From assembly GCA_019925095.2 (NCBI GenBank), contig CM034407.1:62001-126000 (forward strand): DNA of 64,000 nucleotides, written 5' to 3'. How positions within the stretch are numbered: position 1 is the first letter of the stretch; each line of letters starts with the position of its first letter. The notes beneath the pieces were generated by a model that had not been told where the DNA came from, did no database searches, and saw nothing but the letters and a program-made list of their open reading frames with translations. The translations under genes were made by a program, and so were the position numbers. Source of the stretch: Dendrolimus kikuchii (Eukaryota > Arthropoda > Insecta > Lepidoptera > Lasiocampidae). Below are positions 1 through 27,252 of this stretch, piece by piece.

Positions 1-560
1 AAGAACTCCCCGGGGGCTCCCAGGAGAGCCCAAGCTCCGATATTTTCGCTCAAGAAGAGCCCGAGTTTTCGGACTTTAAAATTTCACAGCCGCCATCTTG
101 GATTTCTTCGAGTCCCAATATCTCGGGAACTATTGACCTCACAGGAGTGAGACTTTTTTAGGGGGCATCAGGGCAACTCGTACTACACGATAAGCCCTGA
201 AAAACGATAAAAATTTTCGGAAAAATCCAAGTACGTGGCGACCTAGATCTAACTTGGGGAGTTCGTACGAGCCCAATCTTGGGTAATTTTGACTTAAAAA
301 CCCCCAAGTTAGAGCTAGTCAAAGTTTGGTCGGCGGCCATATTGGAATTTTTGTTTCGCCCATATCTCGGGCCCTATTTATTTGAGGAAGACCGGGTTTC
401 CTCTAGAGGAACCCTTGGGACTCCCTCTATCGATTGGACCCCCTCTGGACCCAATCGGAGTTGTAAGGTCGACCCCCCCATTTTCCTCCCCTATTCGATA
501 GAGCTCGTGGAGGCGAGAGGAATAAGCCCAAACACAGTCCTCTAGCTGCAGTATTGAGTG
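1..560 (+). repeat. Modular 5' region of element A with YY1/Pho-like motifs
   Basis: Two degenerate modules about 240 bp apart begin with GCCGCCATCTTGGA (89-102) and CGGCGGCCATATTGGA (331-346). Each is followed by a TATCTCGGGNNCTATT block. The GCCGCCATCTTG core is the reverse complement of the AAGATGGCGGC-type YY1/Pho site. Spacing and order recur in elements B-E. Confidence 0.55.
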
Positions 561-1182
561 AACAGTGAAGGGTCGAAGTTTGAGAAGTTTTATTTCGGTA
601 AAACTTCGGACACCACTGCTCCCTCAATAAGACAGATAGGTAGCTCGTGCTTGGGGTTAAACAACTCGGCTCGACGAGACCTATCTTCCTACACCCCCTC
701 CACTCCCCTATCCCCACCCCTATTTTTCAACCTACCCTATTTCACTTACCTGTGTTCCTATTTCCCCGTTCTTGGTGTCTTCGGATTCTCCGTGACGCGG
801 CGGACTCGTCGGCACTGCTGGAACGCTCCCTGCTCCTCCCCCCTCCTCTCCATTGACCTGAAACAAAAATTAGATTAGAAATTGTAAATAAAAAATTATA
901 GTAATAAGAAAGAACTTACCTTGACGCTGTAGTTGGCACGCCGACATTACCTGTAGAAAATAAGATAATATTAGTTATAGTTGACAGCAACATAGTTGCG
1001 TATTGTATTAATATTACTTTTGACTGTTGACTGGTTCAATATATTTTATTTTATTCTTTATTTTTAGTAATTTGACCCTTCGATTCTGTGTTTTACGCGC
1101 TAATCGAATAAATTAGGACCCACACTAGTTATAGGACACATACTTTAGGACAGTAAACCACCCCTTTTGACGATCAAACAAG

Positions 1183-2703
1183 ATGTTCAGGACACCGGCA
1201 AAGCTGAAGCGGGCGGAAGCGGTGGCTTTCGAAGACGTAGAGTTTGAGGATAGCCCATCTTGTTCATCTGCTAGCCCGAGCCCAATTACATCTAGGCCGG
1301 GACAAAAGAAAGGGGGGGTTTCACTTAAATTCTCCCCGCCTTCCAAGAAGGTCGTCCAAGCAGTCGCTGGTCCCAGCAAGGAACCAGTAAATAAAACCTA
1401 TACAAAGCGGACGCCACCGAAAGAAACTAAGAAAGTGGCAGTAAGGGGAAAGAGAGAGGACAGGATGCTGGAGGCCAGAGAATGCTTGGACAAATTCAAC
1501 GAACACTTGTCCAATTCGAGAAATCTCAAAACGGAGATTAAGCAGGGCGCATCGTACGCGGTGGGACGTATATACGTCCTGTTAACCCACTGCAACAGGG
1601 AACTCGAAGAGGCAACAGAAGCCCTAGCGGCTAAGGTGGGGAAGGACCCGGGCGAACCTAAAAGAGAATACAAAGACGTGCAAACACAGGCAACGATGCA
1701 GGATCCTGTGCAGAGCAAGCTCCCTACGGATAGAGAAGATAGGGAAGAGCTCAACAGAAAATGGGAAATCCTCGCTGGACGCATGGAAGAGCACTCCAAA
1801 CTCTTGAAACAAAACCTGGAAAGTACGAATAACCTGGAAAGGGTTATTCTAAAGCACAGGGAAAATGTGAGCGAGGAGTGCGAGCCGAGAAAGAGCTACG
1901 CGAGAGTAGTGTCCGAAGGGTCTGGGGCGAGGCCACAAACCTATAGGACACTACATTCAGTGGCGATAACCGCAGAGTCGGGCGACTGCACGGCCGATGA
2001 GACCCTCAAAGGTATCAGAGTGGCGCTAAACGCCAAAGAAGGGGGGGTTGAGGTCGAGCGAGTCAGGAAGGCCAAGGACGGTAGGGTTATCGTCAGCTGT
2101 AGGACAGTGGAGGAGCGCGAAAAGCTCAAGGCCAGGTTGAAGAGAGAAAGGGCGGACTTTGTGGCAGAGGACATCACCAACAAAAGACCTATGGTGATGA
2201 TAACGGGTGTCCTCAAAGCGCATACGGACGACGACCTCCATAAAGCCCTCAGAAACCAGAACAAAGCGGTATTTGAGGGCCTTGGGGAGGAAGACGACCT
2301 TATGGAAATCGCGTATAAGATCCGAGGACGAAACCCGAACACGCACAGAGTAGTGTTCAAGGTGTCACCGGCCCTTTGGAAACGGCTCACGGAAGTAGGT
2401 ATGGTGAGGATCGACCTACAGAACCTGCACGTGACGGACAGGTCACCACTGACGCAGTGCACCATCTGCCTGGGCTTCGGGCACGGCAAAAAGCTATGCA
2501 CGGAGACCCAGGTGATGTGTAGCCACTGCGGTGGCCCCCATACAAAAAAGGTGTGCGAAGAGTATGCGGTGGATGCGCCACCCAAATGTAAAAATTGTGT
2601 AAAGGAGAAAAGGGCAGAGGCAGGACACAACGCGTTCAGCGAGGCCTGCCCAGTAAGAAAAAGATGGGATGAGATAGTGCGCACAACCGTGGCCTACTGC
2701 TAA
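1183..2703 (+). CDS. Gag-like ORF1 protein of element A (506 aa)
   Basis: Nucleic-acid-binding gag protein of R1-clade/TRAS-SART type, expected to package element RNA. Residues about 1-95 are basic and proline-rich (MFRTPAKLKRAEAV start). Residues about 95-225 are helical with a conserved SRNLKTEIKQG motif. About 245-420 form two alpha/beta blocks that look RRM-like (YRTLHSVAI; MVMITGVL). Three zinc knuckles close the protein: C-x2-C-x4-H-x4-C (426-439), C-x2-C-x3-H-x4-C (446-458) and C-x2-C-x9-H-x6-C (469-489). The terminal TVAYC is shared by all five copies. The ATG context (caaacaagATG) and the alignment with the other copies set the start. The frame is intact. No partner ORF2 follows. Function is inferred from family architecture. 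Confidence 0.85.
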   Translation: MFRTPAKLKRAEAVAFEDVEFEDSPSCSSASPSPITSRPGQKKGGVSLKFSPPSKKVVQAVAGPSKEPVNKTYTKRTPPKETKKVAVRGKREDRMLEARECLDKFNEHLSNSRNLKTEIKQGASYAVGRIYVLLTHCNRELEEATEALAAKVGKDPGEPKREYKDVQTQATMQDPVQSKLPTDREDREELNRKWEILAGRMEEHSKLLKQNLESTNNLERVILKHRENVSEECEPRKSYARVVSEGSGARPQTYRTLHSVAITAESGDCTADETLKGIRVALNAKEGGVEVERVRKAKDGRVIVSCRTVEEREKLKARLKRERADFVAEDITNKRPMVMITGVLKAHTDDDLHKALRNQNKAVFEGLGEEDDLMEIAYKIRGRNPNTHRVVFKVSPALWKRLTEVGMVRIDLQNLHVTDRSPLTQCTICLGFGHGKKLCTETQVMCSHCGGPHTKKVCEEYAVDAPPKCKNCVKEKRAEAGHNAFSEACPVRKRWDEIVRTTVAYC

Positions 2704-3375
2704 AACGGCGACCGGCGACAACAAAATAGCAATGGACCGAAAGCCGTACCTCGTTGAAACAAATGTTCAACAAACGGTGACATGTCAGTAAGACTGAAAC
2801 AGACAACGAGGGCGGCCAACGGCCCCACTATTTTGCGTGGAACCGGAAGCTGAATTTAGACAGTAGGTTGCTTCGTACGGGGAATCACAAGATGATTAGT
2901 GGTGACACAAAAGAGGTCGGGTACCTGCAACTGAGGTCACACATAGAACACAATAAATAACACAACATACAAATACACGTCGAGTAACACACAACACAAT
3001 AACACAACCCACACAAACCAAATTCACCAATCATAATGAGGAAAACACACAAGAAAACATAGACAACAAACATGCACACACGATGCAACAAACTACTTTT
3101 AGTGTTAAAAGCAGTTGGTTCGAGTAACACCATATTCAAGCACAACACTAACACGCACTAGAAGACAGTTTGATACATGCAGATACAAACATACATAAAA
3201 ACACACACAAGAAACACACATAATATACACACAAAGAATAAAGAACACTTACCAGTTGCAGCCACCCGAAGGTAGTAGACAACCTGTAACAAAGTAAAAT
3301 ATTAGCATATAAACAGGGGAATAAGTATATATGAACCAGTAACATAAGATAGTAATATAAAATTGTATAAAAAAT

Positions 3376-3419
3376 GAACACTGCAGATATATACTTGAGT
3401 ATATTTACTGTCAGCGTCA
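3376..3419 (+). other. Conserved 3' palindromic stem-loop, element A
   Basis: An outer GAACACTG/CAGCGTC arm pair encloses the inner palindrome ATATACTTGAGTATAT. Elements B-E have the same layout with different but still complementary inner arms. Confidence 0.5.
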
Positions 3420-4001
3420 GAAATAGGCAATAAGTAGAATATATACAGTAAGTAAAAGAATAGATTAGAAACTACCTTAAGATAAAAGTTGTTAGCACGT
3501 AGAACATAAAATAGAAAATAAAACTACACTAGAAACATAGACATATAGCTACTAGAATAATTAAGACAGTAAGAGCAGAACTACATAAGCATAAGATTAG
3601 AACAAAATTGTAATAAACTGTATTAGTAAAATATTATTGTATAAAAAGATTGGCGTATAAAACCTGTAAAGAAAAATAAAATACACAAGAAATATGTAAT
3701 TAGAAATTAAGCAACAAATGTACGTACAATAAGGTTAAATAAAGAAAATAGTACCAACCCCACCCAGCCTATCCCAACCTTGACCAACAACCATCACCAA
3801 CCTTACTCAATTCCCGCAACATTCCCAAACACCAATCACCAAACATCCTATAATACAAATACCTGGTACTTACCATACTAGCATCACCCAATCCATACAA
3901 CCCGTGTAGTAGTGTTATGCATGTAATAAAGATAGTAGCTATGAGATGGGAAAAAACGGAAACCCATAAATAGTAAAAAATAAAAATAAAGAAAAGATAA
4001 G

Positions 4002-4024
4002 CTCCGTCATGTCCTAAGATGGAG
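4002..4024 (+). other. 3'-terminal RNA hairpin, element A
   Basis: Stem CTCCGTC/GATGGAG (7 pairs with one G-U) with a 9-nt loop, 12 nt before the poly(A). The hairpin is kept in all copies with changed stem sequence. Related SART-type LINEs need a 3' stem-loop for RT recognition, so a similar role is inferred. Confidence 0.55.
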
Positions 4025-4035
4025 AGCCCGGGCGA

Positions 4036-4067
<32 letters not shown>

Positions 4068-4070
<3 letters not shown>

Positions 4071-4124
4071 AACCTAACCTAACCTAACCTAACCTAACCT
4101 AACCTAACCTAACCTAACCTAACC
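4068..4124 (+). repeat. Telomeric (CCTAA)n tract 1
   Basis: 57 bp of uninterrupted CCTAA (11 units plus CC) between the poly(A) of element A and the 5' end of element B. C-rich on the plus strand, as expected for a left chromosome end. Confidence 0.97.
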
Positions 4125-4126
4125 CA

Positions 4127-4139
4127 GTTCCGCTCGAAC
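4127..4139 (+). other. 5'-terminal hairpin, element B
   Basis: GTTC-CGCTC-GAAC directly after the CCTAACC junction. The same hairpin is in C and D. E has GTCT-CGCTCC-AGAC, so two pairs are compensated. The short stem limits confidence. Confidence 0.35.
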
Positions 4140-5379
4140 CGCGCTCGGAAACGGTCGATTTTCTCAGAGCTCCTCGGGAAAAAATTCAGAAAAATAGGTT
4201 TTTTGATAGCTACAGTGCAGTGCGACATATCAGTGCGTGCGCGAAAGTGAGGCGCAGGTGCCTGAACAAAATCTAGATTCGTAGCAGTTCGAATAAAAAA
4301 GTTATGGTGAAAAAACAAAATTTGTAAACTTTGAAAAATCATAACTCCGAAACCGAATCGGTGACACCCGGTTTTTAAGGGCGGCTTTTGTGGGGCCCCG
4401 TTGCCCCCATCCCCCAAAAATATAATAAACAATTTCCCAATTCGACCGAAGAAGTTATAGTGTAAAAAGTGAAAAAACGTGGACCCAAGTTGGCCGTTTT
4501 TGGACCTATTCCAAATTCAAAATTACAAGTGAATAGAGCGTCGAAAACTAAGACATATTGGCCAGAAACGACCTTAGGATTTTGGATAGTTTTTCTGTAA
4601 AAAATTAAAAAGTGAGTAAAATTTTTGGACTTTTTTGTTTTCCGGCCTTAAGTCGAAAAATTTCTTCGAGACTTAAAATTCGGCCACGGTAGCCAGCGAG
4701 AGCCTGCCGAGACGCGTCGTCCGACACCCCACTCTTGGGAATCGGAAGAAACCCGGAGCTGCCAGGATCAAAAAAACAACTTCCTAACCTCAAAATTGCT
4801 CCGGAACTACTGGAGCAATTGACTTGAGGTTAGGGAGGATTGAAGACCATCTGGAGGACGGCGCAAAACCGGTTCCAGCAGAATTTTATGATAAGTAGTT
4901 TTAAGTTATTTTTAATTAGAATATTAAACTTTGACCCCCCATATCTCCGAAACTATTGGAGGCGCGCGGGATTTGAGACTACCAGTTTGTGCGCGCTAGG
5001 GAGCTCTACCTAGCCGTACCCAAATTCCATAGGATTGTACTAGAAAAAATCCGGAAAAATTTCAAAAATTTAAAATTTTCAAAATTTTCTAAGTCAAAAA
5101 ACTTTTTAGTATTAGGGCAATTTTATTAAAAATCATAATAAATTAGAGCACCTTTTAGCGGACTTTCCGGATATTTTTCGGCATTTTTATCTCCAATACT
5201 TTCGGAAATATCGATTTTTAAATAGTTTCTTGTAAATATATAAATATATATAATAGGTAAAATTAAGATAGTTGCAGAATCGGACAGGTCTCTTCAAGAC
5301 CTACGCCCTGACCCCAAACTCGGCTGTCCTAGGCCAAACCAGGCCTGAGAACCAGGTATTTACTGGATTTTGGCCAAGG

Positions 5380-6010
5380 GCCGCCGCCATTTTGAAATTT
5401 TTGTTTTGCCTATATCTCCGGATATACTGATCCGATTTTGACGCGGTTTGGACTGGGACGTAGAACTTGACCTAGCGGACAGTATCCGGGGGTAAAAAAC
5501 GGCAAAATTTTTTGACATAAACCCCCCCCAGAAACGGGTAGGGAAGGTAATCGGACTAACCTTAGTCGAAATCCGGCGCCGCTGAGACGATTTTTGGCTG
5601 AGTTACAGCTGTTTCTCGCCGAAATCTGACAGCTAGCCGCCATCTTGGAAAACCTTTAAACCCCGATAGCTCCGTAGCTATTGGGCGGACGAAATCGGGA
5701 TTTCGACTAGGGCCTTTCTAAGGGGCTACTCTATCACATAAGACCAAAAAATTGACAAAAAATTTGAGAAAAAACTGAGCACGTGGGGACGTAGATCTAA
5801 CTTGGGGAGACCTTACGAACCCAAACACGGGTAATTTTGACCCTCAAACGCCCAAGTTAGAGCTACTCAAAGTTTAGTCGGCGGCCATCTTTAATTTTTT
5901 GTATTGCCCATATCTCGGGCCCTATTAGGCTTAGGAAGACCGGGTTTCCACTAGGGAGACACCCAGGACTCTAGTTACCGATTAGATCCCTTCAGGATCA
6001 AATCGGAGTT
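5380..6010 (+). repeat. Modular 5' region of element B with YY1/Pho-like motifs
   Basis: Three modules spaced about 254 and 244 bp start at about 5381 (CCGCCGCCATTTTGAA), 5636 (GCCGCCATCTTGGAA) and 5879 (CGGCGGCCATCTTTAA). Each is followed by a TATCTCCGG/CGG block and an ACTATTGG-like or CCTATT-like element. Confidence 0.55.
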
Positions 6011-6680
6011 GCATGGTCAACCCCCCCATTTTTACCCCCCATCCGATAGAGCTCGTGGAGGCGAGAAGAATAAGCCCAAGCACGGTCGTCTGGCTGCAAT
6101 ATTGCGTGAGCAGTGAAGGGTCGAAGTTTGGGAAGTTTTATTTCGGTAAAACTTCGGACACCACTGCTCCCTCAATAAGGCAGATAGGTGGGTCGTGTTT
6201 GGGGTTGGACAACTCGGCTCGACGAGACCTACCATCCTACATCCCCCCCACCCCTCTATCCCCACCCCTATTTTTCAAACCTTCCTATTTTACTTACCTG
6301 TGTTCCAATCTCCTCGTTCTTGGTGTCATCGTGCTCCTCGCGACGCGGCGGACCCGTTGGCACTGCTGGAACGCTCCCTGCTCCTCTCCTCTCCACTCCA
6401 TCAGGACCTGAAACAGAAAATAGTATTAGAAAAGTGTATATAGCAATTAGATATAAGGACAGTACTTACCTAGTATATAGTAGCTGGCACGCCGACGCCT
6501 TCTGTAAAGAAATAAAAATAGTTTTAGTCAATTTGACCGCAACTAAGTTGTTTTTGTTTTTTTATTTGACTGTAATTTATACGATTGACTGGTTCAATAT
6601 ATATTGTTTATCTTTTATTATTTGACCTTTCACCTGGTGTTATTGCGCCAGGCGAATAGTATAGATAGAAAGTAAGTTAC

Positions 6681-6717
6681 CTTCCCAGTGAACTAGTGAT
6701 CTCCTTTCACTGGGAAG
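6681..6717 (+). promoter_or_regulatory. Perfect 12-bp inverted repeat touching the ORF1 start, element B
   Basis: CTTCCCAGTGAA (6681-6692) and TTCACTGGGAAG (6706-6717) with a 13-nt loop. The 3' arm ends on the base before the ATG at 6718. In RNA this would put a stable hairpin against the initiation codon, suggesting control of Gag translation. It is present in B and C only. Confidence 0.6.
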
Positions 6718-8364
6718 ATGCATAGAACACCAGTAAGACCCCGCGCACCAGCGAAGGTAGTTTTGACGCCGCCGGAAAAGGTACCACTACCTCCGGGGTT
6801 AATCCCCGTCGTGGGACCCGACACGGTGAGAAGGGAGAGGATTAGGAACCAGATCAACAGGGACTGGTCCCCAGTGACAGATGACGTGGAAGAGACGGTG
6901 GCGGAATCCCCTCCCGCAAAAGAAGAAGCAAGACTGGAAGTCAACATAAATAAGAGCCCCCTAAGTATAGGAACCCAACTAAGAAAGAAGGTGACCCTGA
7001 CTTTCTCCCCTCCTACTGCAAGGGTTGTGAATAAAACCTTCACAAAGACGACACCAACGAAAGGAGGGAAAGAGACAAGTAGAGAAACAGAGGCGCAAAA
7101 ATGTATCACCAAGGCCACAATCCACCTTAACGACTCTCGAAATTTGAAAACGGAGATCAAACAGGGCGTACAAAACGCGGTAGACCGTCTGTACGCCCTG
7201 TTTAAAGAGTCAGAAAGGGAATTGGAGAAGACCCGGGAAATGGTGAAAAAAGGGGGCGTGGCTCAGGACGAACGGGAGAAGAGCACTAATGATGCTGAGA
7301 CCCAAATACAGAAGGGTGATTTGGAGGAGGCGACACCGGAGACGGTAAGAGTCGATCCAAATCAAACTATGTATGGGATTATGAATGTGGATGACAGAGC
7401 CTTTCTTAAAGCAGGTTGGGCCAAGCTTGAGGACAAAATGGAAGTGCAGGCCAAACTCCTCACGGAAGCAACCGAAGCGATGAATAACTTCCAGAAAGTT
7501 ATTCAGAAGCACGCATCGGAAGCGAGCGAGGTCTGCGCTCCAAAAATGAGCTACGCGAGTGTGGCGGCTGTAAGACCCGGGGCTAAACCCCTGACTTACA
7601 GGACGCTACACTCAGTAGCCATAACATCAGGGGAAGGGAAAAGCTCGGCTGAGGAAACCCTCAAGGAGGTTAGGGTGGCATTAAATGCCAAGAAAGGGGG
7701 GGTGGAAGTCGAGCGAGTCCGTAAAGCGCGAGATGGCCGAGTGATAATCAGCTGCAGAACCACAGAGGAGAGGGAGAAGCTCAAGCAAAAGCTGAGCAAA
7801 GAAAGAGCAGACCTGGTGGCAGAAGACATCATCAACAAACAACCTATGGTGATGATAACGGGTGTACTAAGGGCTCATACAGACGACGACCTCTTCGGGG
7901 CCCTCAGAAACCAAAATAGATTGGTTTTCGAGGGCCTGGAGGAGGACGGCGACTGTATGGAAGTCGCTTATAAAATCCGAGGTAGAAATCCTAACACCCA
8001 CAAGGTAATAATGAGGGTCTCTCCCCCCCTCTGGAGAAGGCTGATGGATGTGGGCACTGTCAGGGTCGACCTGCAAACATTGCAGGTGACGGATCGGTCG
8101 CCTTTAGTGCAGTGCACCACCTGCCTGGGCTTCGGGCACGGCAAAAAGCTGTGTACGGAGACCCAGGTGATATGCTGCCACTGCGGAGGTCCCCACACAC
8201 GGGGTGAGTGCGAAGACTACCTAGTTGGCGCACCGCCAAAATGCAAAAATTGCGTCCGAGAGAGGAGGACGGGACCAGAGGCAGAACACAACGCCTTTAG
8301 TGAGGCGTGCCCGGTACGCATAAGGAGAGACGCAATGGTGCGCGAAACCGTAGCCTACTGTTAG
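6718..8364 (+). CDS. Gag-like ORF1 protein of element B (548 aa)
   Basis: Same family as the element A protein but with a different N-terminus (MHRTPVRPRAPAKVV), which is rich in Pro/Arg up to about residue 125. It keeps the helical SRNLKTEIKQG block (about 142), the two RRM-like blocks and three zinc knuckles. The first knuckle starts near residue 466. The third is C-x2-C-x11-H-x6-C, two residues longer than in A. It ends in TVAYC. The N-terminal 125 codons are almost identical to element C, then identity drops sharply, marking a recombination edge. The frame is intact despite wide divergence from A, D and E, which suggests selection on the protein. Confidence 0.85.
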   Translation: MHRTPVRPRAPAKVVLTPPEKVPLPPGLIPVVGPDTVRRERIRNQINRDWSPVTDDVEETVAESPPAKEEARLEVNINKSPLSIGTQLRKKVTLTFSPPTARVVNKTFTKTTPTKGGKETSRETEAQKCITKATIHLNDSRNLKTEIKQGVQNAVDRLYALFKESERELEKTREMVKKGGVAQDEREKSTNDAETQIQKGDLEEATPETVRVDPNQTMYGIMNVDDRAFLKAGWAKLEDKMEVQAKLLTEATEAMNNFQKVIQKHASEASEVCAPKMSYASVAAVRPGAKPLTYRTLHSVAITSGEGKSSAEETLKEVRVALNAKKGGVEVERVRKARDGRVIISCRTTEEREKLKQKLSKERADLVAEDIINKQPMVMITGVLRAHTDDDLFGALRNQNRLVFEGLEEDGDCMEVAYKIRGRNPNTHKVIMRVSPPLWRRLMDVGTVRVDLQTLQVTDRSPLVQCTTCLGFGHGKKLCTETQVICCHCGGPHTRGECEDYLVGAPPKCKNCVRERRTGPEAEHNAFSEACPVRIRRDAMVRETVAYC

Positions 8365-9174
8365 GCGGGCCTCCGGCAACAACACAATAGTAATGGATCG
8401 GAAGTCGGGCATCGTTGGTGAAAAATGGATTTACAAACTGGTGGTAAATACGCGACAATGGACCAGTCAACGATGCACGGCCAACGATTCGGCTATCGTG
8501 CGTGGAGCCGGAAAGTCTTGCCTGGCAGTAGGATCGCTTTCACCGTGGGACACCACAAATTAGGAAAAGGCGATGAGTAGACAAGTAGGAACACGGGCAT
8601 CTGTGACAGCATACACAATAACACACACACATACATCTAAACACAAATCTAACCCATAAAAATGGGAGCCAATACAAACCAACACAAACCAACTCAAACC
8701 AGCACATAACAACATACAAACGTAAACTCTAAGGCATAAGCACAAAATAAACATACACCAACATACATTAACATGCACCAACACAAACCAACACACACTG
8801 ATACAAACCAATACAGACAAACACGACCAACATAAACCAACACAAGCCAACACTAACAAAACTTGACAACATGCACAAATATACACAAAAACACTAATAA
8901 ACTACAGTACACAGAATAGTAACATACACAGAAACAATCCACTTTTATTGAAAAAATGGATAGTTTAAGTAAACACGTATAACTGCAATACACGGTACAT
9001 ATACTAAAAACAAAAAACAAAATACAATAACAAACAAAATAAATACTTACATATTGCAGAAGCCCGTGCATAGTAGCACACCTGTAACAAAAAATCGCAT
9101 TAAGAACTGTAGAAGTGTAAACATATATATTGACCAGATATAAATATAAGGTAAAAATAAAATTGTATAATCAA

Positions 9175-9218
9175 TGACACTATAATAATATACTTAAGTA
9201 TATATATTGATAGCGTCA
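9175..9218 (+). other. Conserved 3' palindromic stem-loop, element B
   Basis: Outer arms GACACT and AGCGTC enclose a perfect ATATACTTAAGTATAT palindrome. It is the positional equivalent of 3376-3419 in A. Confidence 0.5.
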
Positions 9219-9700
9219 ACAATAGTATAGTAAGATAATATATATTGTATAACAAACTAGAACAAGAAGTACTACTATGGTAAGAAGGACAGAATTAGTT
9301 AAGCATCAAATAGTGTAAGAAAATAGATATGCCATTAATTAATTAAAACTAAACAGAAAAATGTAAATATTCAAAATTCAAAATTATAAAAATATTGTAC
9401 TAAACAGGGCAAAATTGTAATTTGGAAATAATTTTAAGTAAATTGTAAAACTTATTAATAAAGAGCAAAAGAGAACAAATAAATAAAAATCCTACGATCC
9501 CATCCTAACCAATTAACAAAATCCCGTTGATATAATATATACGTAAAAATAAAATTCTATATCTAAATAGTATAATATCGATACATAAATAAGAAATATG
9601 TAGTATATTAAAATATATACATAAATATATACACATATAAATAAATATCTATGTTATACATGCACAAGAACAAATACACTTGATACATATAAAGTATCTA

Positions 9701-9797: not shown

Positions 9798-9973
9798 GCA
9801 GATATAATACAAATAAAATACAATAATATATAGTAATAATATATAAAGTATCTAAAATAGTATGTAATTTAATATAAACATATGCATAAAAATATAAAGT
9901 ATACTTACCTAACCCACTTCCTTTACCCCAGTAATATATATATATAAACAAGTAGGAAAAACAGGCAAATTGA

Positions 9974-9998: not shown

Positions 9999-10035
9999 CT
10001 GAAAGGAGAAAAAAAAAAAAAAAAAAAAAAAAAAA

Positions 10036-17560: not shown

Positions 17561-17999
17561 TGTTGCCCTACCTCCCCGCTATCGATTGCGCTCATAAAAT
17601 TTAGTTTTTAAGTTCAGAAATTTTTGTGCAATTTTCCACCGGATTCTGATAGAGCTCGCGAAACCCAGTGAAACAAGCCCAAACACGCCCATTTTTGGGT
17701 TACCATTGACGACTTATAGGGATTTCAAAAATCCAGACACAAATTTCAGAAATTTTTCTGAAATTTTGAAACGCATCTGACAGCGTATTATACCACCTAA
17801 GGTGGTCGACCTTGGGCTTGTTTTCATTGGCATCCCGAGCTCTTTCAACAGGAGCCCCTCCCCACCCCCTACCCCACCCCTAAAACTATTCCGCCCGTAA
17901 CTCAGTTGTTGTTGGTCTTGGGCTAGCCGAGTTTGGTATTGCCGGAATCGGCTCGTCTAGACCAACGATCTGGGCCTGGCAGAATAGCGGAAATCCCAT

Positions 18000-18296
18000 A
18001 CTTACCTCACTCACCTCACAAAAACACTGCACATTCACTGCTTTCACACACAGTTACACACAAACACACATACCGGGTACCTACCTTGAGTATAACACAT
18101 ACTTACCTTACTTACCTTACACTTACCTGTACCTTTACCTTCCTTACCTTACCATTACCTTACCAGTACCTTACCCGTAGCCAATTTACCTTACCGTACC
18201 TTACCCCACCCTACTTACCTTGTCCACTTACCTTACCTTACCTTATATACCTTACCTCACCTTACCTTATCATACTTACCTTGTTCCTATACTTAC
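18000..18296 (-). repeat. Simple-sequence patch of 5' splice-site-like motifs (GGTAAG)n
   Basis: The plus strand is dominated by ACTTACC/CTTACCTTACC units. On the minus strand this reads as many imperfect copies of G|GTAAG(T), directly following the donor of the 43-nt antisense exon. The other elements have only a single donor here. Confidence 0.7.
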
Positions 18297-18577
18297 CCAT
18301 CCTTAAATCTTGACTCCCGGCGCCTCCCTCCTGGGTTACCTGAAAAATAAAAATTTCTGTAATTAGTATAAGTTAGATTAAGGATATTGTAAAAATATTT
18401 TTGACTATAAAATTATTGTTTTGTTTTATTTTATTAACCTTGACTATTGACTGGATCAATATATATTGTTTTGACGTTATTTTATTTTTGACCACTCGAT
18501 ACTGTGTTATTGCACAAATCGACTAGTTTAGGACCCACACTTAGGTATAAGATTACACTTAGGTCACAAACCTCAAA

Positions 18578-20272
18578 ATGTTTAGGACACCAGCAAACAA
18601 ATCGTGGAAGGCCTGTGAAGTAACGAAGTCGGAAGAACAGGAAATTTGGCGAGAGTCTGGAGATAGTAGTACGAGATATATGGAGTTGCTTTCAGCAAAA
18701 AGAAAACAGAAGCGGGCTGAGGCAGGCTATGTGACCCCTCCCTCAGATATTATATCTCCTGGGCGGACCGAGGTGATTAAAGACAGGGCGAAGGAGCTAG
18801 AACGCACCTCTCTCACTCCAACGAGCCCTGTTACCTCAAGGCAGCACCAGGAAGTAAGGAAAAAGCCGTTAACGCTGAAGTTCTCGCCCCCCCAGAAGAA
18901 GAAGGTGATTCTAAACATCTCCCCGCCCCCTAGGGTAGCCCGGAAAGTGTTTCCAGGGCCCAGTAAAAACGTAGGAAACACGACCTACAGAAAGGAAACA
19001 CCACCAGAGGCGACAAAGAAAGTGGTGACTGAGCAAGACAGGATGACAGAGGCCAAGAAGTCTTTTGACAAAGCCAACGATCTCCTGTCGAACTCTAGGA
19101 ACCTGAAAACAGAAATAAAGCAGGGTGTACAGAATGCGGTGGGTCGGCTGTACACTCTGCTCAAGGAGACTGACGGGGCCCTAAGGGAGGCCTTACTTGG
19201 CAAAGAGGGGAAGACTGCAGACGAACCAACCAAGACGTTTTGTAACGCGCAGACGCAGGTGGAAAAAGTAGATCCATTGCAGAGCAGACACCCTATGGAC
19301 GAGGAGGATAGGGAGACGCTCCGCAAGAGATGGGACGTCCTTACCGAGCGGATGGAAGAGCACTCCGAGCTCCTTAGAAAGAACTTAGAGAGCACGAATA
19401 ACCTTGAGAAGGTAATTCTGAAACACAGCATGAATGAGAGCGAGGAGTGTAACCAAAAACGGACATACGCGAGTGTGGCGGCCGAAAGATCGGGGGTCAA
19501 GCCTCCGAACTATAGGACGCTACACTCCGTACTTGTGGCTAATTTTAAAGAGGACCGCACATCCGAAGAAACCCTCGATGAGGTTAGAGCGGCATTGAAC
19601 GCGAAACAGGGGGGGGTGGAGGTTGAGCGAGTCCGGACATCCAGGCAACGGCAGGTAATTATTAGCTGCAAGACCATTGAGGACAGAGAGAAGGTAAAGC
19701 GTAAGCTAAGAGAGGAAAGGGCTGACTTAACAGCAGAGGACATCACCAACAAAAAGCCGATGGTGATGATAACGGGTGTACTCAGGGCTCATACAGACGG
19801 CGACCTCTTTGAGGCCCTCAGAAACCAGAACAAGCTGATTTTTGAGGGCCTGGGAGAGGAAGACGGCTGTATGGAAGTTGCATACAAGATCCGAGGTAAA
19901 AACCCGAACACCCAGAAGGTCATATTGAAAACCTCGCCAGCCCTTTGGAAAAGACTTACGGATTCAGGCACGGTAAGGGTCGACCTGAAAACATTGCAGG
20001 TCACGGACCGGTCACCGCTTACGCAGTGCACTATCTGCCTGGGATTTGGGCATGGCAAGAAGCTATGCACAGAGTCCCAGGTAGTGTGCAGCCACTGTGG
20101 CGGACCCCACACTCGTAGCGAGTGCGAAGAATATGCTGTCGGCGCACCGCCAAAATGTAAAAATTGCACAAGAGAGAGGAAAGCAGAGACGCGGCACAAT
20201 GCGTTTAGCGAGGCGTGCCCGATAAGGGCGAGATGGGACGCATTGGTACGCGCTACAGTAGCCTACTGTTAG
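18578..20272 (+). CDS. Gag-like ORF1 protein of element D (564 aa)
   Basis: Longest Gag of the array. The N-terminus resembles A/E (MFRTPA) but carries an insertion of about 60 residues. It keeps the SRNLKTEIKQGVQNAV helix block, two RRM-like blocks (YRTLHSVLV; MVMITGVLRAHTD) and three zinc knuckles (CTICLGFGHGKKLC, CSHCGGPHTRSEC, C-x2-C-x9-H-x6-C), and ends TVAYC. The start ATG sits in the same context as in A. The open frame, with domain-by-domain conservation against a background of diverged UTRs, suggests function. Confidence 0.85.
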   Translation: MFRTPANKSWKACEVTKSEEQEIWRESGDSSTRYMELLSAKRKQKRAEAGYVTPPSDIISPGRTEVIKDRAKELERTSLTPTSPVTSRQHQEVRKKPLTLKFSPPQKKKVILNISPPPRVARKVFPGPSKNVGNTTYRKETPPEATKKVVTEQDRMTEAKKSFDKANDLLSNSRNLKTEIKQGVQNAVGRLYTLLKETDGALREALLGKEGKTADEPTKTFCNAQTQVEKVDPLQSRHPMDEEDRETLRKRWDVLTERMEEHSELLRKNLESTNNLEKVILKHSMNESEECNQKRTYASVAAERSGVKPPNYRTLHSVLVANFKEDRTSEETLDEVRAALNAKQGGVEVERVRTSRQRQVIISCKTIEDREKVKRKLREERADLTAEDITNKKPMVMITGVLRAHTDGDLFEALRNQNKLIFEGLGEEDGCMEVAYKIRGKNPNTQKVILKTSPALWKRLTDSGTVRVDLKTLQVTDRSPLTQCTICLGFGHGKKLCTESQVVCSHCGGPHTRSECEEYAVGAPPKCKNCTRERKAETRHNAFSEACPIRARWDALVRATVAYC

Positions 20273-20902
20273 GCGGAATGCCGGGAACAACATAATAGTA
20301 ATGGGTCGGAAATCGAGCATCGTTGGTGAAAAACAGATTTAACAACTGGTGGTTATTAACGCATCAAAGGACCAGTCAACGATGTTCGACATACGACTCG
20401 GCTATTATGCGTGGTACCGGCATATCACGTCTAGCAGTAGTAAACAACGAGGTGGGGAAGTAGATAGTAGTGACCTCCGGAGTTTAAGGTGGAACCGGAA
20501 GCCTGCATAGGTATGCACAAAACACACTAACGAGCGAAACACGACAAGCACCAATACACAACATGCACTAAACATGACAGAAAGCACAAATACACTCACA
20601 ACACACTAAGCACAAACAAAACTAACAAAAATTAAACTGGCAACTTTTAATAAAAAAGTTGTCAGTTTGCAAAACACAAAACATACACAACGCACATATA
20701 AGTACACAAAACTAAAAAAAGAACACTAAAATTGGCATAAATACATTACAAAAAATAGTAACAAAAATATCACTTACCAGACTGCAGGCGCCCGGAACGC
20801 AGAGAAATCTGAAAATTAAAATTAATAGTAAAAGTTCATAGAATAAACAAGATATATGTTGACCAGTAATAGCCAAGGGTAAAACACACGTGTATAATAA
20901 AT

Positions 20903-20946
20903 GAACACTGTAGGAATATACTAAGGTATATTCTTTTAACAGCGTC
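20903..20946 (+). other. Conserved 3' palindromic stem-loop, element D
   Basis: GAACACTG/CAGCGTC arms around GAATATACTAAGGTATATTC. The inner arm differs from A-C but is still self-complementary. Confidence 0.5.
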
Positions 20947-21560
20947 CAAAGAAATGTAAAAATAATAATATATATACTAGTATTAATAAATAGAATATTG
21001 TAGAAAGCAGAAATAAGAAACCTACTGCAATGTTGTAAATTAAACTCTAAAATACATCAGCGCTCAGCGACATAACAACGCATAGAAATAAGATAGAATA
21101 AAAGTAATAATAGATAGCTACTTACGTAAATAACAAAATATATATATATACATATAGACAAATAGATAAAAATCAGATTAGGGAAAAACAGTAGAAGATA
21201 CAGTATTATATAAACTTAGTCATAATCCTAACAGAACTATAAAAAAAAACTAGAAATTACATTGTATAAAGTTAAATATATATAAACAAGGCAAACTATA
21301 TAATAATGTAAACTATTTGGCAATATTTTTCTTAAAAAAATAAATAAAGAAGTTATGCATACCTTACCATTCCTATCCCACACTCCACCCCCACTATTTC
21401 CTTCCTATTATACCCTGATCACACTTCCTAAACACACTTCCAACCTAGACCAACCACAACCAACCTATTCCCAAAGTGCAAAATTATTTGTGTTTATTAG
21501 AAAATAAGTAGCATTAAGACAGAAATTGTAGACCAATAAAGTGAAAACAAAAAGATAATA

Positions 21561-21584
21561 TGCGGACAATCTTGTTCGTCTGCG
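21561..21584 (+). other. 3'-terminal RNA hairpin, element D
   Basis: Stem TGCGGAC/GTCTGCG with loop AATCTTGTTC, 9 nt before the poly(A). The stem is fully changed relative to B/C while the loop ATCTTGTTC is kept. Confidence 0.6.
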
Positions 21585-21593
21585 GTTAAACTG

Positions 21594-21622
<29 letters not shown>

Positions 21623-21625
<3 letters not shown>

Positions 21626-21699
21626 AACCTAACCTAACCTAACCTAACCTAACCTAACCTAACCTAACCTAACCTAACCTAACCTAACCTAACCTAACC
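21623..21699 (+). repeat. Telomeric (CCTAA)n tract 4
   Basis: 77 bp, 15 units plus CC, uninterrupted. Confidence 0.97.
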
Positions 21700-22954
21700 A
21701 GTCTCGCTCCAGACGCGTCCGGAACCAGTCGATTTTCTAAGTGCTCCGTAGTTTTAAATCCAAAAAAATAGGTTTTTTGGACGCTAGACACCCGTGTGTT
21801 ATATCAAACTGTGCGCGTAAGCGAGGCGCATACGCCAGTGGTTTCAGACTGTTTGTGACACAAGTGACCGTGAAGATATTCACAAAAAACAAAAAACAAA
21901 ATCGGTTTTTCGGCCGGCGTTCGAGATTTCGATCGGGCCGAAGAAATTCTGTGAATAGGGTCAGGTAGGCCCTAAGGACCCGCAACATCCCTGCGAGTTT
22001 GCCTTCGAGCGCGTAAGAAACGGACGAGTTAGAACAGCGAGAAGGCGCGGCACGTGGTCACCACGTGGCATCAACTTGGCCAATTCTCGTCCGATCTTCG
22101 CGCTCAAGGTGTCAGAAGACGCGGAACGACGAGGCCAGCACGCAGACACATCGACAGCAGCCGTCCGAGTTATAACCAGTGAGTTATCCAATTTTTTCTG
22201 CGAAAACGCAAACTTGGAAACCAAGAAAAATAATTATAACTCGGGAAAACGATCGTGGACACCTAGTTTTTATTGCGCCATAAAAGAAGACATCAAAAGC
22301 CTTACGTTTCCACACTATCGGGGACTTCGCGCCGCTGATAGAAAATGAGATATAGCAGTTTTTCAAGAAAATGAAAAATTGCTAACTCACTCAATAAGCA
22401 ACCTAGAGGGAAGTACAACGCATCGTCCAGACGGCTACTCAACGGACATCTAATAACTGTAAGAAACAGATTTTTAGCTTTAATAGTTTCCAAAATTTTC
22501 TAATTAGTTCTTTTTAAGTTGCGAGTTTAATAAATAGTTCAATAGTAATTTCGCGTGGGTTTTAAAATTATTAGTAGGTGCGTCTCGCGGCGCTCTACAA
22601 GTACATATTTTTTCCAAAATTTTTCTTAATATAAAATTGTTCAGGGGACCAGAAAAACTAAAAATCTGTAAAATAGTCAATAGTTCATTTTAGTTTTAAG
22701 TTTTGTTTTATGTGTAATACGGGACTCGTAGAGACGGAAATCTAATAGGCTTTTGACATTTTTTCGAAATTTTTAGGCCAATATTAGAATTAATAGAATA
22801 AATTTTCTAGTTTTTTTACTTTTTTCTCTTTTGTCTTAGTTAAAAATTTAAAAATAGCGGTACTATTAGAAGCACAACAAGATTTCCGACCTACGGACCC
22901 CAAACTCGGGCTAATTCGGACCAGTAGTTCCTGAGCAATTGAGATTTTCTTTTT

Positions 22955-23680
22955 TCGGCCGCCATCTTGAAAAATTTTCAAACTCAATTTGCTCGGAAAC
23001 TATTGCGCGGAAAAAATCGGGGTTTTGATTTTAGACCTTAGGGGCATCAGCACCAACCGATCCGACCAAAAACCCAACACCGTTTTTCGGGTTGGATTTT
23101 AAAGGCTTGCGGACAAGAACTCCCCGGGGGCTCCCAGGAGAGCCCAAGCTCCGATATTTTCGCTCAAGAAGAGCCCGAGTTTTCGGACTTTAAAATTTCA
23201 CAGCCGCCATCTTGGATTTCTTCGAGTCCCAATATCTCGGGAACTATTGACCTCACAGGAGTGAGACTTTTTTAGGGGGCATCAGGGCAACTCGTACTAC
23301 ACGATAAGCCCTGAAAAACGATAAAAATTTTCGGAAAAATCCAAGTACGTGGCGACCTAGATCTAACTTGGGGAGTTCGTACGAGCCCAATCTTGGGTAA
23401 TTTTGACTTAAAAACCCCCAAGTTAGAGCTAGTCAAAGTTTGGTCGGCGGCCATATTGGAATTTTTGTTTCGCCCATATCTCGGGCCCTATTTATTTGAG
23501 GAAGACCGGGTTTCCTCTAGAGGAACCCTTGGGACTCCCTCTATCGATTGGACCCCCTCTGGACCCAATCGGAGTTGTAAGGTCGACCCCCCCATTTTCC
23601 TCCCCTATTCGATAGAGCTCGTGGAGGCGAGAGGAATAAGCCCAAACACAGTCCTCTAGCTGCAGTATTGAGTGAACAGT
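22955..23680 (+). repeat. Modular 5' region of element E with YY1/Pho-like motifs
   Basis: Modules at about 22958 (CGGCCGCCATCTTGAA), 23203 (CAGCCGCCATCTTGGA) and 23445 (CGGCGGCCATATTGGA), spaced about 245 and 240 bp. Confidence 0.55.
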
Positions 23681-24296
23681 GAAGGGTCGAAGTTTGAGAA
23701 GTTTTATTTCGGTAAAACTTCGGACACCACTGCTCCCTCAATAAGACAGATAGGTAGGTCGTGCTTGGGGTTAAACAACTCGGCTCGACGAGACCTATCT
23801 TCCTACACCCCCTCCACCCCCCTATCCCCACCCCTATTTTTCAACCTACCCTATTTCACTTACCTGTGTTCCTATTTCCCCGTTCTTGGTGTCTTCGGAT
23901 TCTCCGTGACGCGGCGGACTCGTCGGCACTGCTGGAACGCTCCCTGCTCCTCCCCCCTCCTCTCCATTGACCTGAAACAAAAATTAGATTAGAAATTGTA
24001 AATAAAAAATTATAGTAATAAGAAAGAACTTACCTTGACGCTGTAGTTGGCACGCCGACATTACCTGTAGAAAATAAGATAATATTAGTTATAGTTGACA
24101 GCAACATAGTTGCGTATTGTATTAATATTACTTTTGACTGTTGACTGGTTCAATATATTTTATTATATTCTTTATTTTTAGTAATTTGACCCTTCGATTC
24201 TGTGTTTTACGCGCTAATCGAATAAATTAGGACCCACACTAGTTATAGGACACATACTTTAGGACAGTAAACCACCCCTTTTGACGATCAAACAAG

Positions 24297-25814
24297 ATGT
24301 TCAGGACACCGGCAAAGCTGAAGCGGGCGGAAGCGGTGGCTTTCGAAGACGTAGAGTTTGAGGATAGCCCATCTTGTTCATCTGCTAGCCCGAGCCCAAT
24401 TACATCTAGGCCGGGACAAAAGAAAGGGGGGGTTTCACTTAAATTCTCCCCGCCTTCCAAGGTCGTCCAAGCAGTCGCTGGTCCCAGCAAGGAACCAGTA
24501 AATAAAACCTATACAAAGCGGACGCCACCGAAAGAAACTAAGAAAGTGGCAGTAAGGGGAAAGAGAGAGGACAGGATGCTGGAGGCCAGAGAATGCTTGG
24601 ACAAATTCAACGAACACTTGTCCAATTCGAGAAATCTCAAAACGGAGATTAAGCAGGGCGCATCGTACGCGGTGGGACGTATATACGTCCTGTTAACCCA
24701 CTGCAACAGGGAACTCGAAGAGGCAACAGAAGCCCTAGCGGCTAAGGTGGGGAAGGACCCGGGCGAACCTAAAAGAGAATACAAAGACGTGCAAACACAG
24801 GCAACGATGCAGGATCCTGTGCAGAGCAAGCTCCCTACGGATAGAGAAGATAGGGAAGAGCTCAACAGAAAATGGGAAATCCTCGCTGGACGCATGGAAG
24901 AGCACTCCAAACTCTTGAAACAAAACCTGGAAAGTACGAATAACCTGGAAAGGGTTATTCTAAAGCACAGGGAAAATGTAAGCGAGGAGTGCGAGCCGAG
25001 AAAGAGCTACGCGAGAGTAGTGTCCGAAGGGTCTGGGGCGAGGCCACAAACCTATAGGACATTACATTCAGTGGCGATAACCGCAGAGTCGGGCGACTGC
25101 ACGGCCGATGAGACCCTCAAAGGTATCAGAGTGGCGTTAAACGCCAAAGAAGGGGGGGTTGAGGTCGAGCGAGTCAGGAAGGCCAAGGACGGTAGGGTTA
25201 TCGTCAGCTGTAGGACAGTGGAGGAGCGCGAAAAGCTCAAGGCCAGGTTGAAGAGAGAAAGGGCGGACTTTGTGGCAGAGGACATCACCAACAAAAGACC
25301 TATGGTGATGATAACGGGTGTCCTCAAAGCGCATACGGACGACGACCTCCATAAAGCCCTCAGAAACCAGAACAAAGCGGTATTTGAGGGCCTTGGGGAG
25401 GAAGACGACCTTATGGAAATCGCGTATAAGATCCGAGGACGAAACCCGAACACGCACAGAGTAGTGTTCAAGGTGTCACCGGCCCTTTGGAAACGGCTCA
25501 CGGAAGTAGGTATGGTGAGGATCGACCTACAGAACCTGCACGTGACGGACAGGTCACCACTGACGCAGTGCACCATCTGCCTGGGCTTCGGGCACGGCAA
25601 AAAGCTATGCACGGAGACCCAGGTGATGTGTAGCCACTGCGGTGGCCCCCATACAAAAAAGGAGTGCGAAGAGTATGCGGTGGATGCGCCACCCAAATGT
25701 AAAAATTGTGTAAAGGAGAAAAGGGCAGAGGCAGGACACAACGCGTTCAGCGAGGCCTGCCCAGTAAGAAAAAGATGGGATGAGATAGTGCGCACAACCG
25801 TGGCCTACTGCTAA
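24297..25814 (+). CDS. Gag-like ORF1 protein of element E (505 aa)
   Basis: Near-twin of the element A protein. By eye the ORF1 differences from A are one in-frame 3-bp deletion (one Lys in the PSKKVV stretch), three synonymous changes and one Val-to-Glu change inside the second zinc knuckle spacer (KKVC to KKEC). All three zinc knuckles, the RRM-like blocks and the TVAYC end are intact. It follows the usual conserved start context. Function as for the other copies: RNA packaging and telomere targeting, inferred. Confidence 0.85.
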   Translation: MFRTPAKLKRAEAVAFEDVEFEDSPSCSSASPSPITSRPGQKKGGVSLKFSPPSKVVQAVAGPSKEPVNKTYTKRTPPKETKKVAVRGKREDRMLEARECLDKFNEHLSNSRNLKTEIKQGASYAVGRIYVLLTHCNRELEEATEALAAKVGKDPGEPKREYKDVQTQATMQDPVQSKLPTDREDREELNRKWEILAGRMEEHSKLLKQNLESTNNLERVILKHRENVSEECEPRKSYARVVSEGSGARPQTYRTLHSVAITAESGDCTADETLKGIRVALNAKEGGVEVERVRKAKDGRVIVSCRTVEEREKLKARLKRERADFVAEDITNKRPMVMITGVLKAHTDDDLHKALRNQNKAVFEGLGEEDDLMEIAYKIRGRNPNTHRVVFKVSPALWKRLTEVGMVRIDLQNLHVTDRSPLTQCTICLGFGHGKKLCTETQVMCSHCGGPHTKKECEEYAVDAPPKCKNCVKEKRAEAGHNAFSEACPVRKRWDEIVRTTVAYC

Positions 25815-26486
25815 AACGGCGACCGGCGACAACAAAATAGCAATGGACCGAAAGCCGTACCTCGTTGAAACAAATGTTCAACAAACGGTGACATGTCAGT
25901 AAGACTGAAACAGACAACGAGGGCGGCCAACGGCCCCACTATTTTGCGTGGAACCGGAAGCTGAATTTAGACAGTAGGTTGCTTCGTACGGGGAATCACA
26001 AGATGATTAGTGGTGACACAAAAGAGGTCGGGTACCTGCAACTGAGGTCACACATAGAACACAATAAATAACACAACATACAAATACACGTCGAGTAACA
26101 CACAACACAATAACACAACCCACACAAACCAAATTCACCAATCATAATGAGGAAAACACACAAGAAAACATAGACAACAAACATGCACACACGATGCAAC
26201 AAACTACTTTTAGTGTTAAAAGCAGTTGGTTCGAGTAACACCATATTCAAGCACAACACTAACACGCACTAGAAGACAGTTTGATACATGCAGATACAAA
26301 CATACATAAAAACACACACAAGAAACACACATAATATACACACAAAGAATAAAGAACACTTACCAGTTGCAGCCACCCGAAGGTAGTAGACAACCTGTAA
26401 CAAAGTAAAATATTAGCATATAAACAGGGGAATAAGTATATATGAACCAGTAACATAAGATAGTAATATAAAATTGTATAAAAAAT

Positions 26487-26530
26487 GAACACTGCAGATA
26501 TATACTTGAGTATATTTACTGTCAGCGTCA
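26487..26530 (+). other. Conserved 3' palindromic stem-loop, element E
   Basis: Identical to the element A structure at 3376-3419. Confidence 0.5.
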
Positions 26531-27112
26531 GAAATAGGCAATAAGTAGAATATATACAGTAAGTAAAAGAATAGATTAGAAACTACCTTAAGATAAAAGT
26601 TGTTAGCACGTAGAACATAAAATAGAAAATAAAACTACACTAGAAACATAGACATATAGCTACTAGAATAATTAAGACAGTAAGAGCAGAACTACATAAG
26701 CATAAGATTAGAACAAAATTGTAATAAACTGTATTAGTAAAATATTATTGTATAAAAAGATTGGCGTATAAAACCTGTAAAGAAAAATAAAATACACAAG
26801 AAATATGTAATTAGAAATTAAGCAACAAATGTACGTACAATAAGGTTAAATAAAGAAAATAGTACCAACCCCACCCAGCCTATCCCAACCTTGACCAACA
26901 ACCATCACCAACCTTACTCAATTCCCGCAACATTCCCAAACACCAATCACCAAACATCCTATAATACAAATACCTGGTACTTACCATACTAGCATCACCC
27001 AATCCATACAACCCGTGTAGTAGTGTTATGCATGTAATAAAGATAGTAGCTATGAGATGGGAAAAAACGGAAACCCATAAATAGTAAAAAATAAAAATAA
27101 AGAAAAGATAAG

Positions 27113-27135
27113 CTCCGTCATGTCCTAAGATGGAG
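27113..27135 (+). other. 3'-terminal RNA hairpin, element E
   Basis: Same hairpin as in element A (CTCCGTC/GATGGAG). Confidence 0.55.
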
Positions 27136-27147
27136 AGCCCGGGCGAC

Positions 27148-27175
<28 letters not shown>

Positions 27176-27178
<3 letters not shown>

Positions 27179-27252
27179 AACCTAACCTAACCTAACCTAA
27201 CCTAACCTAACCTAACCTAACCTAACCTAACCTAACCTAACCTAACCTAACC
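27176..27252 (+). repeat. Telomeric (CCTAA)n tract 5, boundary with non-telomeric DNA
   Basis: 77 bp of pure CCTAA (15 units plus CC), followed directly by non-telomeric sequence. It is the most internal telomeric tract in the window. Confidence 0.97.

Follow-up and report, generated by a model that had tools for sequence, protein, structure and literature searches.

The analysed stretch, called the window below, comprises 64,000 nucleotides of Dendrolimus kikuchii contig CM034407.1 (C21:62001–126000) and starts 62 kb from the contig end; all genome searches reported here cover this one assembly (705,495,508 bases, 49 contigs). The window opens with an array of five retroelements, A to E, which carry an intact gag open reading frame (ORF) and are separated by CCTAA telomeric tracts (Table 1). 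Two more gag-only elements, T and F, lie outward of the window on the same contig. Together with their relatives elsewhere in the genome, these elements probably represent a lineage that arose from TRAS, a lepidopteran family of telomere-specific non-LTR retrotransposons (R1 clade), by loss of ORF2 and that would be mobilised in trans by the ORF2 protein (ORF2p) of autonomous TRAS through a shared 3' hairpin.

Table 1. Elements and telomeric tracts at the C21 end. Positions are those of the window unless prefixed by the contig.
Feature	Position	Strand	Parts and remarks
Element A	1–4067	+	3' 4.07 kb in window; 5' end on the contig C21:60583; gag 1183–2703; 3' hairpin 4002–4024 (class II); poly(A) 4037–4067
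Junction relic, element A (example)	2704–2790	+	ATG at +29, MDRKPY..., 19 codons, then stop
CCTAA tract A/B	4068–4124	+	
Element B	4125–10035	+	gag 6718–8364; ORF1/ORF2 junction relic from 8365; 3' hairpin ~9974–9998 (class I); poly(A) 10009–10035
CCTAA tract B/C	10036–10107	+	
Element C	10108–15757	+	gag 12696–14285; hairpin ~15699–15723 (class I); poly(A) 15737–15757
CCTAA tract C/D	15758–15789	+	
Element D	15790–21622	+	gag 18578–20272; hairpin ~21561–21584 (class I); poly(A) 21594–21622
CCTAA tract D/E	21623–21699	+	
Element E	21700–27175	+	gag 24297–25814; hairpin 27113–27135 (class II); poly(A) 27148–27175
Innermost CCTAA tract	27176–27257	+	followed by non-telomeric sequence with an RVT_1-bearing ORF
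Element T (gag-only TRAS)	C21:14508–20410		
Element F (gag-only TRAS)	Gag C21:47466–49046		class I 3' hairpin
Truncated autonomous TRAS piece	C21:54410–55497		ORF2 residues 1077–1242, 85.5% identity
Truncated autonomous TRAS piece	ends at C21:31479		
SART-type gag-only units	C21:24533–28034, 31703–35125, 35221–38740	-	3.4–3.5 kb; common 5' and 3' ends

The Gag frames of A to E are intact (506, 548, 529, 564 and 505 aa), and the poly(A) tails of 31, 27, 21, 29 and 28 bases are each followed directly by pure CCTAA (6–15 whole repeats). The 5' ends of B to E lie directly 3' of (CCTAA)nCC, with one extra C in B; the element starts are related, and read AGTTCCGCTCGAACC in B, C and D and AGTCTCGCTCCAGAC in A and E. 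The 3' regions contain 43–45% A. Frames, tails and tracts were located as a first-pass annotation of the window had described them. Of the four complete elements and one partial one in that description, B to E are indeed complete, and A is truncated by the window edge only, its 5' end lying 1418 bp before window base 1. The mutual divergence claimed for the five ORF1s holds for the pairs other than A/E (57–63% Gag identity, 76% for B/C) but not for A and E, which are 99.7% identical over 5.6 kb. The Gags carry three C-terminal Cys/His knuckle motifs, and no Pfam profile scored above cut-off against them. Searches with tblastn, using a TRAS1 endonuclease (EN) fragment, a SART-type ORF2 and a Jockey-like ORF2 as queries, gave no match to A to E at E < 1 on either strand. 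This agrees with the first-pass annotation and is the ground for rejecting an EN or reverse transcriptase (RT) gene hidden on the opposite strand or in the untranslated regions (UTRs).

The association of Gag with ORF2 was scored across the genome as adjacency, for which ORF1 had to be followed, on its own strand and no more than 900 bp away, by a match to a Bombyx TRAS1 EN fragment. Scored matches comprised 85 of 1191 candidates for the element-E Gag, 81 of 1313 for an autonomous ORF1 and 150 of 1798 for the EN. The scored relatives of the element-E Gag, 81 of which have no internal stop, were followed by one of the 150 EN matches in 0 of 85 cases, and still in 0 of 85 at 3 kb. With the autonomous ORF1 as query, the positive control of the test, EN followed in 43 of 81 cases, at a spacing that was always 332–341 bp (44 of 81 at 3 kb). 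The union of both searches contains 158 loci, 43 with EN and 115 without. Among 63 of the 150 EN matches, 49 had an open ORF2 of at least 1000 aa, and a found ORF1 preceded 39 of these; the best EN matches have an open ORF2 of ~1233–1253 aa, many of them near contig ends. At 30 gag-only loci read directly, no forward ORF within ~1.5 kb after gag exceeds 135 aa (30 of 30), a poly(A) run of at least 12 lies 1.0–1.35 kb after gag in 18, and a CCTAA tract is present there in 13. The possibility raised by the first-pass annotation, that most copies have ORF2 and only the C21 array lost it, is rejected on the adjacency of the copies scored genome-wide and is likewise at odds with the loci read directly. 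Features of TRAS are present, with poly(A)–CCTAA insertion in 5 of 5 window elements and a related ORF1 with knuckles. An ORF2 with EN and RT, which also belongs to TRAS, was found neither in A to E, nor in the 30 loci, nor after the 85 relatives, and the elements are therefore TRAS-derived and non-autonomous rather than complete TRAS.

Gag is under purifying selection. The ratio of nonsynonymous to synonymous divergence (dN/dS), estimated by the Nei–Gojobori method (NG86), is 0.13–0.22 in most diverged Gag pairs (dS partly saturated; two pairs not computable), and at low dS amounts to 0.32 for B/T and 0.095 for A/E. Among 35 gag-only ORF1s, the medians are 0.064, 0.142, 0.111 and 0.097 in four dS bins between 0.05 and 1.3, computed from 384 pairs that are not independent (range 0.039–0.284; A and E counted twice). 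The ratio thus lies far below 1, whereas a value near 1 would have refuted the first-pass annotation. The elements with a related ORF1 and an ORF2 that it proposed to look for do exist, as separate autonomous TRAS. In a tree of 53 ORF1 sequences, the gag-only rows cluster in a single group that also includes four annotated D. kikuchii proteins (support 100/99); this group adjoins two autonomous ORF1s, another D. kikuchii protein and three other proteins (82/71), and other lepidopteran relatives fall outside that clade (the root serves for drawing only). The gag-only elements are thus a lineage of their own beside intact autonomous TRAS, and dN/dS and the tree together show that Gag remained constrained after the loss of ORF2.

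The elements of the C21 end are built of modules. Across the 5' UTR and into the beginning of gag, B, C and T resemble one another (mostly 82–99%, locally lower), the similarity of B and C falls to 61–76% beyond ~330 bp into gag (window 4125–15757), and what A has in common with these three is mainly one 5' UTR module, a pattern that we read as modular exchange or template switching. B and C themselves appear chimeric. An explanation by dead, ORF2-deleted TRAS copies, which no longer retrotranspose and are passively amplified as telomeres recombine or undergo gene conversion with each other, would draw on this pattern, in which B, C and T share one module while B and C differ in another, and on the near identity of A and E on one chromosome end. 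It is nevertheless improbable, given the 81 of 85 Gags without internal stop, the median dN/dS of 0.06–0.14, the varying poly(A) lengths with precise CCTAA junctions, and the occurrence of near-identical copies on several contigs, one of which (L021) is poly(A)-tailed and lies 3.6 Mb inside C22 with no CCTAA after it.

Candidate helpers of the gag-only lineage are autonomous TRAS of two types. An intact copy of type 1 on contig C25 has an open ORF1 of 543 aa and an ORF2 of 1243 aa with EN, RT and RNase H; type 2 is found on C14. The EN of the helper copies is ~48–56% identical to that of TRAS1Bm, and the gag-only ORF1 is 44–49% identical to an ORF1 adjoining a TRAS-type ORF2, the reference here being that ORF1 and not a named TRAS ORF1. 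The 5' end of the C25 copy aligns to B, C and T with 73–76% identity over ~850–910 bases, the alignment to B and C starting no more than a few bases from their 5' ends, and the C14 5' UTR aligns to gag-only elements with 70–72%.

The stretch after gag resembles the start of an ORF2. In 13 of 13 gag-only elements, many of which are close relatives and so not independent results, 22–30 of 48 bases match type 1 in register, more than in each of 239 other registers. An ATG stands at +29 after the gag stop in 12 of the 13 (GTG in one), where type 2 has its ORF2-opening ATG, and the peptide that follows reads MDRKPY or MERKP, against KERKPY in type 1; A, B, C and D share this ATG and MxRK. The +29 frame is closed after 9–19 codons in 11 of 13 elements, and is open in B and T at 30 codons, the length examined. 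The junction relic, the ATG and the early-closing frame together point to a deletion of ORF2 after its first codons. Despite the loss of ORF2, all 13 elements resemble each other in the bases following the gag stop (window 2704–2760; likewise in B, C and D), and a kept translation signal or a short peptide is possible there.

Shared structure is also seen at the 3' ends, which carry two classes of hairpin. Class I, a 7-bp stem around (A)TATCTTGTTC, AATCTTGTTC or AATCTCGTTC, is carried by B, C, D, T, F, two truncated pieces and the 3' end of autonomous type 1. Over seven class I sequences 98% of the cells are paired (0 of 500 shuffles), slid controls reach at most 50%, and two-sided changes occur in 4 of 7 pairs (17 of 500 shuffles reach 4). 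Class II, CTCYGTC...GAYGGAG, is present at 22 of 30 loci, including A and E, and in autonomous type 2 on C14 and its truncated kin; none of 500 shuffles reaches the score of A and E aligned to the C14 3' end. A class I tail running into poly(A)–CCTAA with the loop ATCTTGTTCG (TTG) occurs 26 times genome-wide, 17 times after a scored gag-only ORF, 9 times after none scored and 0 times after an autonomous one. With the loop AATCTCGTTCG (TCG) it occurs 13 times, in 6 autonomous and 5 gag-only elements, once without a scored ORF and once in a truncated autonomous C21 copy, which the script labelled gag-only since F lies 6.4 kb before it. The reversed-pattern control gave 0 for either loop. The 6 autonomous AATCTCGTTCG tails lie 3.55–3.60 kb after EN and belong to one subfamily, whose ORF1 is 65–66% identical to that of C25. 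Class II tails with poly(A)–CCTAA were counted in at least 3 places (0 in the control), an undercount in that long poly(A) runs exceed the allowed gap and element A itself is missed. The occurrence of either class both in gag-only elements and in one autonomous type suggests two donor–helper pairings.

Both kinds of element point one way near contig ends, as do all 58 gag-only loci and all 29 autonomous loci placed within 150 kb of an end. Scored copies are present at 35 contig ends, of which 14 carry both kinds, 18 gag-only elements alone and 3 autonomous elements alone.

From the sequence data we infer that the gag-only elements are expressed and mobilised, in the following way. An ancestral TRAS would have lost ORF2 just after its start, keeping the 5' terminus, gag and the 3' hairpin with poly(A). 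The gag-only RNA would be packaged by its own Gag, as the purifying selection suggests. The ORF2p (EN, RT, RNase H) of autonomous TRAS, often residing at the same chromosome ends, would then bind the shared hairpin in trans, nick the TTAGG/CCTAA repeat and reverse-transcribe the gag-only RNA there by target-primed reverse transcription, a step suggested by the precise junctions and the matching of hairpins. For the related SART1, published work shows trans recognition of a 3' UTR by the SART1Bm proteins, which carry a reporter RNA into telomeric repeats (PMC7265360), and SART and TRAS require both ORFs and the 3' UTR (PMC4700185). The EN/RT acting in trans that the first-pass annotation had postulated thereby acquires a concrete candidate, autonomous TRAS sharing 5' ends and 3' hairpins, and it is the trans action itself that we infer.

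The genome also contains a TERT-like gene (PF12009, 52.7 bits against a cut-off of 25, C26:8071945–8072307, open frame of 709 aa), and the host is a moth with TTAGG telomeres, in keeping with the first-pass annotation. Because of this gene, the system is not obviously a telomerase replacement. Reverse transcriptase could in principle come from telomerase, from SART ORF2p or from another LINE, and the genome is rich in SART-type ORF2s (44 scored of 20006 candidates, 41 of the 44 without internal stop). Such a source is highly improbable, however, as the orientation and the poly(A)–CCTAA junction are of the TRAS kind while SART-type elements are reversed, the 3' hairpins are shared with autonomous TRAS, and the 3' ends of SART on C21 look different.

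Several observations weigh against mobilisation by autonomous TRAS or against parts of it. The 5' end of the C25 copy adjoins an A-rich stretch instead of CCTAA and seems to lack its first few bases, and the 3' end of this copy reads N. The in-register match after gag exceeds all other registers for type 2 in 4 of 13 elements only, and gapped local alignment of this stretch with type 1 is weak (2–89 of 300 shuffles as high). The hairpin stems were picked by eye before counting; class II is fully paired, but two-sided changes are absent. When the 3' ends of the class I gag-only elements (B, C, D, T, F) are plainly aligned to autonomous 3' ends, they are not clearly above shuffles, and those of B and C score equally well against the other autonomous type, so that support for the class I pairing comes from structure and loop. 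Identification of a helper by plain 3'-end similarity was accordingly clear for A and E with C14 and was rejected for B, C, D, T and F. With 85 of 1191 and 81 of 1313 ORF1 candidates and 150 of 1798 EN candidates scored, an EN more diverged than the scored ones could escape detection at the 115 loci without EN. Finally, telomere targeting is not absolute, since 33 gag-only and 3 autonomous copies lie in contig interiors (24 and 11 are unplaceable); among these best-scored copies the interior share differs between the kinds (Fisher p = 0.003). Interior gag-only copies without CCTAA at the 3' end include L018/L046 (C29:1.59 Mb), L021 (C22:3.64 Mb) and L041/L047 (C3:16.7 Mb); some have poly(A), one stops ~8 bases before the tail, and they may be off-target insertions or relics.

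A different role for Gag may also be considered, in which the gag-only lineage is partly domesticated and its Gag gives telomere targeting to all TRAS-type particles, making helper and donor mutually dependent. The purifying selection on Gag and the presence of both kinds on 14 of 35 contig ends are compatible with such a role, and HeT-A Gag is required for the targeting of TART (PMC5537684). Autonomous elements have an open Gag frame of their own, though, selection for packaging in cis fits the data equally, and 3 of the 35 ends hold autonomous elements only among the scored copies, so that we give this alternative very little credence beside the mobilisation of a non-autonomous donor by autonomous TRAS.

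A second gag-only family, of SART type, occurs on the same contig end. Its three units listed in Table 1 have ORF1 only, which is broken in two of them and open over 828 aa in one. The tandem array of these units spans C21:24533–42500 (-), with a short inverted repeat, CCCCCAGGGGG, at the unit 5' end. Genome-wide, 55 of 4006 SART ORF1 candidates were scored; 7 of 11 pairs of same-strand neighbours less than 12 kb apart are spaced 3.39–3.64 kb, too short for an ORF2, and 36 of the 38 loci placeable near a contig end have one orientation. SART ORF1 was followed by SART ORF2 in 0 of 55 cases against the 44 scored ORF2s, found with a query from a related family. Because of this query and the few ORF2s scored, the gag-only status rests mainly on the directly read units of 3.4–3.5 kb. 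It is conceivable, although rather doubtful, that TRAS and SART each split independently into gag-only donors and ORF2 helpers (matched by hairpin class in TRAS), with the gag-only Gags doing the telomere work for the whole set; this would amount to a convergent HeT-A/TART division of labour with TTAGG repeats and a TERT gene still present.

The gag-only lineage resembles TRAS in its insertion into TTAGG/CCTAA, the poly(A)–CCTAA join, one orientation near contig ends, an ORF1 with three C-terminal Cys/His motifs, a related 5' terminus and the 3' hairpin, and differs in having no ORF2 beyond a short remnant. In SINE/LINE pairs, the non-autonomous partner keeps the LINE 3' stem-loop for recognition in trans; unlike SINEs, which encode no protein, the gag-only partner retains gag under selection. 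The likeness to HeT-A extends to the gag-only content, the long 3' UTR, head-to-tail arrays of one orientation at chromosome ends and RT from elsewhere (PMC5537684, PMC4700185). HeT-A, however, is considered to join directly onto the chromosome terminus, whereas CCTAA lies on both sides of B to E, and its fly host is without telomerase repeats, whereas a TERT-like gene is predicted here. The HeT-A-like character seen by the first-pass annotation thus applies to the way of working and not to kinship, the elements being probable TRAS derivatives that insert inside repeats. HAL1 (half-L1) of mammals likewise derives from a LINE, has ORF1 only, ends in poly(A) and relies on the full-length LINE (PMC5322556). 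Unlike HAL1, which derives from L1 and has target-site duplications, the present elements are TRAS derivatives with hairpin-tagged 3' ends mostly near chromosome ends, and an origin from L1 ORF1 is unlikely because of their relation to TRAS-type ORF1.

HeT-A/TART and HAL1 are the closest prior ideas. No gag-only TRAS or SART was found in the literature covered (including PMC4700185, PMC5563155, PMC7265360, PMC12036569, PMC13338207 and PMC5537684), a weak absence given that this coverage is mostly without subscription papers. The source of the HeT-A reverse transcriptase was called unknown in a 2017 review (PMC5537684), and TART has been named as its provider (PMC4700185); in the present genome, such an element coexists with a likely helper, nameable from shared termini, and the two have recognisable 3' hairpins in common. 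If the reading is true, TTAGG repeats and a TERT gene need not be lost for a HeT-A-type arrangement to arise. Both the helper–donor idea and the reason for the retention of gag are directly testable, a trans assay for SART1 in cultured moth cells having been published (PMC7265360).

The C21 array is not gag-only throughout. The description first given holds for A to E, but outward of the window the same contig end carries, besides T, F and the gag-only SART units, ORF2-bearing and truncated pieces, namely the truncated autonomous TRAS of Table 1 and a 5'-truncated SART with ORF2; the SART-type elements lie on the strand opposite to the TRAS types. The 3' region of F (C21:49047–54365) is 5.3 kb long, far longer than in A to E, with direct repeats of ~270 bp. 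The contig begins with a 14.5-kb array of 5-mers of the CCTGG/ACAGC type (C21:1–14500), beyond the outermost element, in which CCTGG dominates (10,746 of ~14,600 positions) and CCTAACTTCTTC stands at the inner edge. The 705.51 Mb assembly was built from Nanopore, HiFi and Hi-C data (PMC8589036), and nanopore sequencing has been shown to miscall CCCTAA as CCCTGG and CTTCTT (PMC9414165), for which reason the C21 start is most likely a miscalled telomere and the true chromosome end. A real CCTGG satellite is disfavoured against such miscalling of CCTAA. Miscalled arrays of this kind would conceal telomeres from TTAGG scans of the assembly.

Inward of the array, a LINE that is presumably Jockey-like occupies window positions 33972–37888, with an open ORF1 of 232 aa (Baculo_FP domain) and an EN–RT ORF2 of 951 aa. 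Two further ORFs appear gene-like and GC-rich to the eye, one for an AIF-type oxidoreductase (40189–41754, -) and one for a hamartin (TSC1) homologue (47934–50570, +).

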